Source of the DNA: Streptococcaceae bacterium
GTDB lineage: Bacteria > Bacillota > Bacilli > Lactobacillales > Streptococcaceae
Assembly (NCBI GenBank): GCA_031270215.1
Contig: JAISYB010000042.1
Coordinates: forward strand, 1 to 36,534
Length of the DNA stretch: 36,534 nt
Direction: 5' to 3'
Position 1 is the first letter of the stretch. The number at the start of each line of letters is the position of its first letter. The position numbers and the translations under genes are program-made. This document shows positions 1-3,709 of the stretch, one piece after another. A model generated the notes under the pieces. That model saw only the letters and a program-made list of their open reading frames with translations, ran no database searches and had not been told where the DNA came from.

Positions 1-588
1 AAAGCTATCGCCACGCATTGCATTGACACCTTTTGATACAACTTTTAATGCATCGATATCAAGTCCTGAGTCAATTTCATCTAAAATAGCAAACGTTGGC
101 TCTAGCATTAGGAGCTGCAAAATCTCATTACGCTTTTTTTCTCCCCCGGAAAACCCTTCATTTAAATAACGCTCTGCCATTTCCTCTGGCATATTTAACA
201 AATCCATCTTTTCATCGAGCTTAGTGATAAAATCAATGACTGAAATTTTATCATCTTCACCACGCTTAGCATTAATCGCTGCCCGCATAAATTCAGCATT
301 GGTAATCCCTGGAATTTCTGATGGGTATTGCATTGCCAAAAACAACCCTAAACGCGCACGCTCATCAACTTCAAGCTCTAAGATGTTTTCGCCATCTAAA
401 AGAACTTCACCACGAGTCACCTCGTAATTGGGATTTCCCATAATTGCCGCTGACAGGGTTGACTTCCCAGTACCATTTGGCCCCATAATCGCATGGATTT
501 CTCCAGTTTTCATGGTTAAATTAACACCCTTTAAAATTTCCTTTTCCTCAATTTTGACGTGCAAATCTTTGATTTCTAAAACAGACAT
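1..588 (-). CDS. sufC: Fe-S cluster assembly ATPase SufC, 3' end truncated by the window edge
   Basis: Reverse-strand translation from the ATG at 588: MSVLEIKDLHVKIEEKEILKGVNLTMKTGEIHAIMGPNGTGKSTLSAAIMG...YLNEGFSGGEKKRNEILQLLMLEPTFAILDEIDSGLDIDALK. Walker A, SGGEKKR signature and Walker B are all visible. Not in the ORF track because no stop lies inside the window. Confidence 0.95.
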   Translation of the reverse strand, partial: MSVLEIKDLHVKIEEKEILKGVNLTMKTGEIHAIMGPNGTGKSTLSAAIMGNPNYEVTRGEVLLDGENILELEVDERARLGLFLAMQYPSEIPGITNAEFMRAAINAKRGEDDKISVIDFITKLDEKMDLLNMPEEMAERYLNEGFSGGEKKRNEILQLLMLEPTFAILDEIDSGLDIDALKVVSKGVNAMRGDSF

Positions 589-883: not shown

Positions 884-1156
884 TTAGTAGCCCTTTGCAC
901 GCCATTTAATGGTGTGACGCGTTGGTCGATTTGTAGCTAATTTTTTACGTACACCATTCTTGTCAATTCTAACTTCAACTCGATAATGCTCGTTTTGGCT
1001 AATGTCGTAAATCTTCTCCGCAGAAGATGTCACCGTTGTCTTGGTTTTATTTGCCAAATCCTTAGCCAAATCAGGAACATCCTTAGCTTTCTGGGCAACA
1101 TCACTGGCGATTGCTTTCGCTTTTTGGGCAACTTCATTCAACTTATCTAATGGCAT
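884..1156 (-). CDS. Small hypothetical protein with an Ala/Lys-rich amphipathic N-terminal half (LEA-like) and a basic C-terminus
   Basis: 90-aa ORF with an upstream RBS (AAGGAGGC) and a downstream terminator-like hairpin. Confidence 0.7.
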   Translation of the reverse strand: MPLDKLNEVAQKAKAIASDVAQKAKDVPDLAKDLANKTKTTVTSSAEKIYDISQNEHYRVEVRIDKNGVRKKLATNRPTRHTIKWRAKGY

Positions 1157-3326: not shown

Positions 3327-3355
3327 ATTTTACGTTGTAACGTAAAGTAAGTCAA
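3327..3355 (-). promoter_or_regulatory. Promoter of the DUF951-ychF-DUF1129 operon with an overlapping operator-like palindrome
   Basis: Minus strand TTGACT (3350-3355), 17-bp spacer, TAAAAT (3327-3332). TTTACGTT-AC-AACGTAAA (3329-3346) overlaps the -10 and most of the spacer. Confidence 0.65.
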
Positions 3356-3486
3356 ACGCCCTATTTAAAGCACCCTCAGCCATTTTATTAAATAATTTTA
3401 GCCTATTAGAAAAATATTTTGATGTTTTTTTTGAAAAATTTGAGCATTATGCTTTAAATTATTAATCAATTTGGTATAATGGTGTT

Positions 3487-3641
3487 AGTCAGTAAAGTAA
3501 TTTACTGTTAGATGATTGGGTTACTCCCCTTTCCCTTTCATTTTACCCTTTTTTGACTACTGATATTGACCTAGTAGCATACAAAGTTCCCCTCATAACG
3601 CTTTGTATATTACGCGGACGGCAATATTGGTAGTTTTTTTA
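3487..3641 (+). ncRNA. Putative stand-alone small RNA with C-rich single-stranded segments
   Basis: Extended -10 TGGTATAAT (3472-3480); hairpin CAGTAAA-GTAA-TTTACTG (3490-3507); pyrimidine-rich CTCCCCTTTCCCTTTCATTTTACCCTTTTTT; nested terminator CTACTGATATTG (3557-3568) / CAATATTGGTAG (3622-3633), 12 bp, followed by T7; inner hairpin ATACAAAG/CTTTGTAT with loop TTCCCCTCATAACG. No plus-strand ORF follows. Confidence 0.6.
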
Positions 3642-3674: not shown

Positions 3675-3709
3675 AAAACACTCCGCCTAAAAAATATCGG
3701 AGTGTTTTT
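3675..3709 (-). terminator. Terminator of the ecfA1-ecfA2-ecfT operon, probably bidirectional
   Basis: AAAACACTCCG / CGGAGTGTTTT, 11-bp stem with A and T flanks. Confidence 0.85.

Follow-up and report, generated by a model that had tools for sequence, protein, structure and literature searches.

What is encoded in the intergenic region that separates ecfT from DUF951, two genes transcribed from the minus strand of a 36,534-nucleotide (nt) stretch of DNA from a Streptococcaceae bacterium (contig JAISYB010000042.1, here termed the window)? A previous reading of the sequence, hereafter the original prediction, proposed that the plus strand carries a small RNA (sRNA) of the C-rich kind that sequesters Shine-Dalgarno (SD) sequences. 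Our analysis points to a stand-alone, structured, plus-strand RNA whose stems have diverged between species while remaining paired, and whose C-rich segments have not changed at all; the proposed SD pairing, however, was not reflected in genome-wide enrichment, the seed matching start regions no better than its shuffled or reversed counterparts. The gene appears to be undescribed, and its kind, the C-rich sRNA, is known from other Gram-positive bacteria.

Several sequence features mark out the gene (Table 1). The region opens with a sigma-70-type promoter bearing the extended -10 element recognised in the original prediction, and the RNA would begin 7 nt past the -10 and end at the U-run of an intrinsic terminator. 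The predicted fold of the whole RNA (-41.3 kcal/mol) is far more stable than those of shuffled sequences (-25.4 +/- 3.4 kcal/mol; z -4.65), none of 200 shuffles being as good, and homologous RNAs from two relatives are predicted to adopt the same fold, likewise ahead of all their shuffles (z -4.8 and -6.5); by this measure the fold is beyond chance. It comprises, in order, a 5' hairpin with the GUAA (GNRA) tetraloop that had been anticipated, a weak hairpin and a mostly single-stranded segment presenting the first and second C-rich sites, respectively, and a terminator domain presenting the third. The second site is preceded by CAU, such that an anti-AUG element is followed by an anti-SD element. 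Two structural details of the earlier description required adjustment. The long pyrimidine stretch, with CUCCCCUUUCCCUUU and UACCCUUUUUU, is present, but CUCCCC is predicted to lie in the 12-nt loop of the weak hairpin and is not fully unpaired. Likewise, the nested terminator and its U7 run were recovered, but the outer stem has 14 pairs, with 2 further pairs across a bulged A, rather than 12.

The strongest argument for a functional RNA comes from comparison with related genomes. A DNA search of 61 genomes returned two clear homologues, both in the genus of the window: one in G001 (E 4.7e-19), a Streptococcaceae metagenome-assembled genome (contig JAKVKP010000017.1), and one in G002 (E 3.7e-18; contig NZ_JABJXU010000005.1), which is labelled Enterococcus sp. 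MMGLQ5-1. This label places G002 in the Enterococcaceae in the NCBI taxonomy; the genome collection assigns it to the window's genus, and to the same family as some genomes with CiaR-type csRNAs, and the Enterococcus label looks wrong. Between the window's own genome (G000) and the relatives, all 21 stem pairs are kept, 12 of them through changes on both sides, and the arms of the outer stem are just 20-40% identical. In the structure-based alignment, which was made by hand with two bulged bases of the relatives omitted, all 7 pairs of the 5' hairpin (5 with both partners altered) and all 14 of the outer terminator stem (7 with both partners altered) are retained; when letters were shuffled among the variable 3' positions, such retention was matched in 1.7% and 0.4% of trials, respectively. 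G001 and G002 are mutually close, and these figures therefore amount to one evolutionary comparison rather than two. Against this background the C-rich segments are identical at 37/37 positions (GGGUUACUCCCCUUUCCCUUUCAU, 24/24; UUUUACCCUUUUU, 13/13). The terminator domain likewise keeps its internal loop, AUUGACCUAGUA / GGACGGCAAU, identical at 22/22 positions in the midst of a stem that has changed almost completely. The relatives also carry 8 additional bases, a repeat of CUUUCAUA. Accessible C-rich segments conserved between species, as would be expected of the functional class of C-rich, SD-pairing sRNAs, are thus present, and the combination of diverged but paired stems with identical C-rich segments is the pattern expected for base-pairing seeds on a structural scaffold.

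How widely is the gene distributed? A covariance model built from the three sequences scored its own members at 106-182 bits. With strict filters, which distant relatives could escape, the best other genome in a 248-genome sample of the family reached no more than 27 bits, leaving no convincing relative outside the genus, and the best other match in an overlapping 400-genome sample of the order, similarly filtered, scored 25 bits. The weak family hits that were inspected (L036, L039, L042 and L043) appear to be antisense to ordinary genes, at their promoters or ribosome-binding sites, and we attribute them to chance. The family search gave one match apiece in G000, G001 and G002, with no second copy seen, and no match was present in plasmids or phages. 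As judged from these searches, the gene is found only in three species of the window's genus. The original prediction had named the ecfT-DUF951 junction of relatives as the place to look for conservation; the stems, the C-rich segments and the position beside DUF951 are indeed kept, but within this genus only. In other genera the neighbours of DUF951 differ, and the absence of the sRNA there is read from the covariance search.

How might such an RNA act? The reading we favor is that of a single-copy, independently transcribed, trans-acting sRNA of ~155 nt, in which the 5' hairpin and the strong terminator stem would have a protective and structural role. The seeds CUCCCCUUUCCC in the hairpin loop, UACCCUUUUU in the single-stranded segment and CCCCUCAU in the terminator-domain loop would pair with ribosome-binding sites that are rich in G, in a limited number of mRNAs, and so prevent their translation, as do LhrC, IsrR and the csRNAs. 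A translational block is the most likely action because the layout of C-rich sites is LhrC-like, the use of several sites recalls IsrR and RoxS, and the CAU ahead of the anti-SD run is csRNA-like. Drawing on analogy together with conservation, we judge this to be probably the best explanation of the locus.

Candidate targets were ranked in G002 only (2.57 Mb of sequence; 2460 genes called by a simple home-made script; 2251 start regions ranked). The C-rich region paired better with start regions than with coding control windows, and the highest-ranked pairing was with sufS (-36.3), which also scored -34.0 in G001, there measured with a longer stretch. For relA, the predicted pairing in G002 (-30.0 kcal/mol) ranked 12/2251, and in the window's genome it was -31.1 kcal/mol, stronger than for any of the 2251 G002 start regions when these were scored with the seed used there. 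Because relA was one of four genes followed into the relatives, and was picked for its high rank in G002, we regard it as a lead and not as a result. Two other suggestions were rejected. The acnA leader, which carries GATAGGGAGGGTG ahead of a likely later start and had been offered as a local target, is unremarkable, at the 53rd percentile in the window, where the start of the longest open reading frame (ORF) was scored, and the 16th in a relative. An iron-sparing role, an idea prompted by hits to sufS and pflA, was abandoned in view of the lack of a Fur box, the ordinary sufS start region in G000 and the failure to find a close pflA orthologue in that genome. As a separate observation, sufC, sufD and sufS are adjacent in G002, sufS of the window's genome lies on a separate contig (L229, G000:C44) with a different upstream sequence, and the suf order (window 1-588; L229) is therefore different or broken in that genome.

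Several results weigh against seed pairing at ribosome-binding sites. Shuffled and reversed seeds matched G002 start regions equally well or better, with no enrichment beyond pyrimidine content; the reversed seed gave somewhat fewer long exact matches to start regions, many of those given by the true seed ran through ATGAAAG at the beginning of genes, and the excess is not convincing. The longest matches across the whole genome were no longer than those of shuffled RNAs. No candidate was strong in all three species: relA (2/3) is weak in G001 (-19.6), and sufS (2/3) is ordinary in G000 (-16.0, 27th percentile). Transcription of the sRNA is itself deduced from sequence features, and seed pairing does not account for the invariance of the internal loop in the terminator domain.

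That invariant loop, and the missing target enrichment, would suit a structured RNA that binds a protein as a sponge or scaffold, with the C-rich and internal-loop sequences serving as protein sites and not as mRNA seeds. We consider this alternative improbable, though not negligible: C-rich loops in sRNAs from low-GC Gram-positive bacteria have time and again turned out to act as seeds for mRNA pairing (PMC4132741, PMC9410917, PMC5419742), and no protein-binding RNA of Rfam matches. A bolder combination of the two ideas, in which the fixed loop binds a dedicated RNA chaperone and the sRNA tunes the stringent-response gene relA, is speculative and rather less probable again. Hfq is reported to be missing from these bacteria (PMC3091779), and the loop offers a concrete bait for an sRNA-binding protein in them.

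Might the RNA instead be a small messenger, or have a dual function? A frame beginning MLGLLPFPFH is open in both relatives (55 and 49 codons), and its first codons agree in the window, where, however, the matching frame has 14 codons and is broken by the 8-base length difference. Its ATG is without an SD sequence in every one of the three species, in the relatives it continues through the terminator stem, and the conserved block is identical at all codon positions, such that the constraint looks to be exerted at the nucleotide level. Translation of this frame is unlikely, and we give a messenger function very little credence.

Equally little credence attaches to a csRNA of the CiaRH regulon, or a member of another named family (6S, RsaE/RoxS or LhrC), that has drifted past recognition. 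The family is shared with csRNA genomes, and the general layout, including CAU before the anti-SD run, is similar. However, csRNAs are defined by a CiaR repeat, NTTAAG-N5-TTTAAG, ~10 nt ahead of the -10 (PMC3091779), and this is absent from the sRNA promoter; moreover, no exact CiaR-type promoter occurs in the three genomes, although the same pattern recovers csRNA-like genes in control genomes. A scan of the promoter region for Fur, PerR, CodY, cre, CiaR and Rex sites found none above shuffles, the best Fur box matching at 12/19 positions. As the original prediction had surmised, nothing in Rfam matches the sRNA at curated thresholds, and permissive thresholds gave only matches below half of the gathering scores, beside the sRNA or from unrelated families, with none to LhrC, RsaE/RoxS and the like. 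The 6S RNA (RF00013), named beforehand as a match that would overturn the proposal, lies elsewhere in all three genomes (G000:C28, G001:C11 and G002:C5).

Least credible of all is a minus-strand element, either a 5' leader belonging to DUF951-ychF or the 3'-terminal part of the ecfT message: both neighbours are read from that strand, but a conserved promoter of the DUF951-ychF unit lies between DUF951 and the sRNA region and argues against a leader, a terminator hairpin follows ecfT, and the promoter, GNRA-capped hairpin and U-run all stand in plus-strand order.

No plus-strand ORF lies downstream of the sRNA in the window or in the relatives, in agreement with the original prediction, which had also noted the second terminator; the latter likely terminates minus-strand ecfT and backs up the sRNA terminator. 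In both relatives the sRNA is upstream of and divergent from DUF951, and an additional ORF of ~146 codons separates it from ecfT. The encoded protein of ~146 aa (L003 1811-2251 and L002 2057-2500, both minus strand) has no counterpart at this position in the window, and the L003 copy, which was tested, has no Pfam match. Elsewhere in the window, the sole curated-threshold Rfam match is an L17 ribosomal protein downstream element (RF01708; 26665-26733, minus strand), and a protein of 90 aa that has no Pfam match (884-1156, minus strand) adjoins a DUF1129 protein (1238-1981) and has a counterpart of ~50% identity in G002.

Table 1. Features of the sRNA locus, with window positions.
Feature	Position	Strand	Remarks
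Promoter TTGACT-N17-TAAAAT of divergent DUF951-ychF unit	3327..3355	-	Kept in relatives
Promoter TTTAAA-N16-TATAAT with TG extension	3453..3480	+	Extended -10 TGGTATAAT at 3472-3480; same arrangement in both relatives
Putative sRNA gene, ~155 nt	3487..3641	+	Homologues 78% (G001) and 77% (G002) identical
5' hairpin CAGUAAA-GUAA-UUUACUG, 7 bp	3490..3507	+	GUAA tetraloop (GCAA in relatives); z -4.1 for 3486-3511
Second, weak hairpin	3510..3543	+	First C-rich site, UUACUCCCCUUU, in loop; same predicted fold in relatives
Mostly single-stranded UUUUACCCUUUUUU	3541..3554	+	Second C-rich site; ACCCUUUUU part unpaired in all three predicted folds
Terminator domain	3555..3638	+	14-bp outer stem, internal loop, inner hairpin ACAAAG..CUUUGU; z -4.5
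C-rich apical loop region of terminator domain	3586..3598	+	Third C-rich site, GUUCCCCUCAUAA (CCCCCCUUCAUAA in relatives)
U7 run of intrinsic terminator	3634..3640	+	
Second terminator hairpin AACACTCCG..CGGAGTGTT	within 3675..3709	.	z -4.7

How, then, does the putative base-pairing sRNA compare with C-rich sRNAs already described? In LhrC of Listeria monocytogenes, C-rich (UCCC) sites occupy a hairpin loop, a single-stranded stretch and the terminator loop, and these three sites bind G-rich sequence upstream of the start codon (PMC4132741). The present RNA shares this arrangement; unlike LhrC, which exists in multiple copies and answers to the LisRK two-component system, it is single-copy and without a match in Rfam, and the GNRA-capped 5' hairpin and the invariant internal loop are its own. 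By analogy, the likeness is one of layout only and not of membership. IsrR of Staphylococcus also has several C-rich sites and is conserved inside one genus (PMC9410917), yet it has two Fur boxes, none being detectable here, and a different order of stems. RoxS works through several C-rich regions (PMC5419742), and RoxS/RsaE and FsrA of Bacillus and Staphylococcus use such regions to bind G-rich targets, often the SD sequence (PMC5419742, PMC4132741), but they bear no Rfam similarity to the present RNA. The csRNAs of Streptococcus, in the same taxonomic family, likewise combine a 5' hairpin, an unpaired region in which CAU precedes an anti-SD run, and a terminator (PMC3091779); the RNA described here differs in its lack of CiaR repeats and its longer, more structured terminator domain, and no common sequence block is seen. 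Membership in LhrC, csRNA, IsrR or 6S is not supported. The locus adds to the Streptococcaceae an sRNA that lies outside the CiaRH-controlled csRNAs, is restricted to one genus, probably acts by base pairing and appears to be undescribed, and in which comparison of three species tells scaffold from seed.
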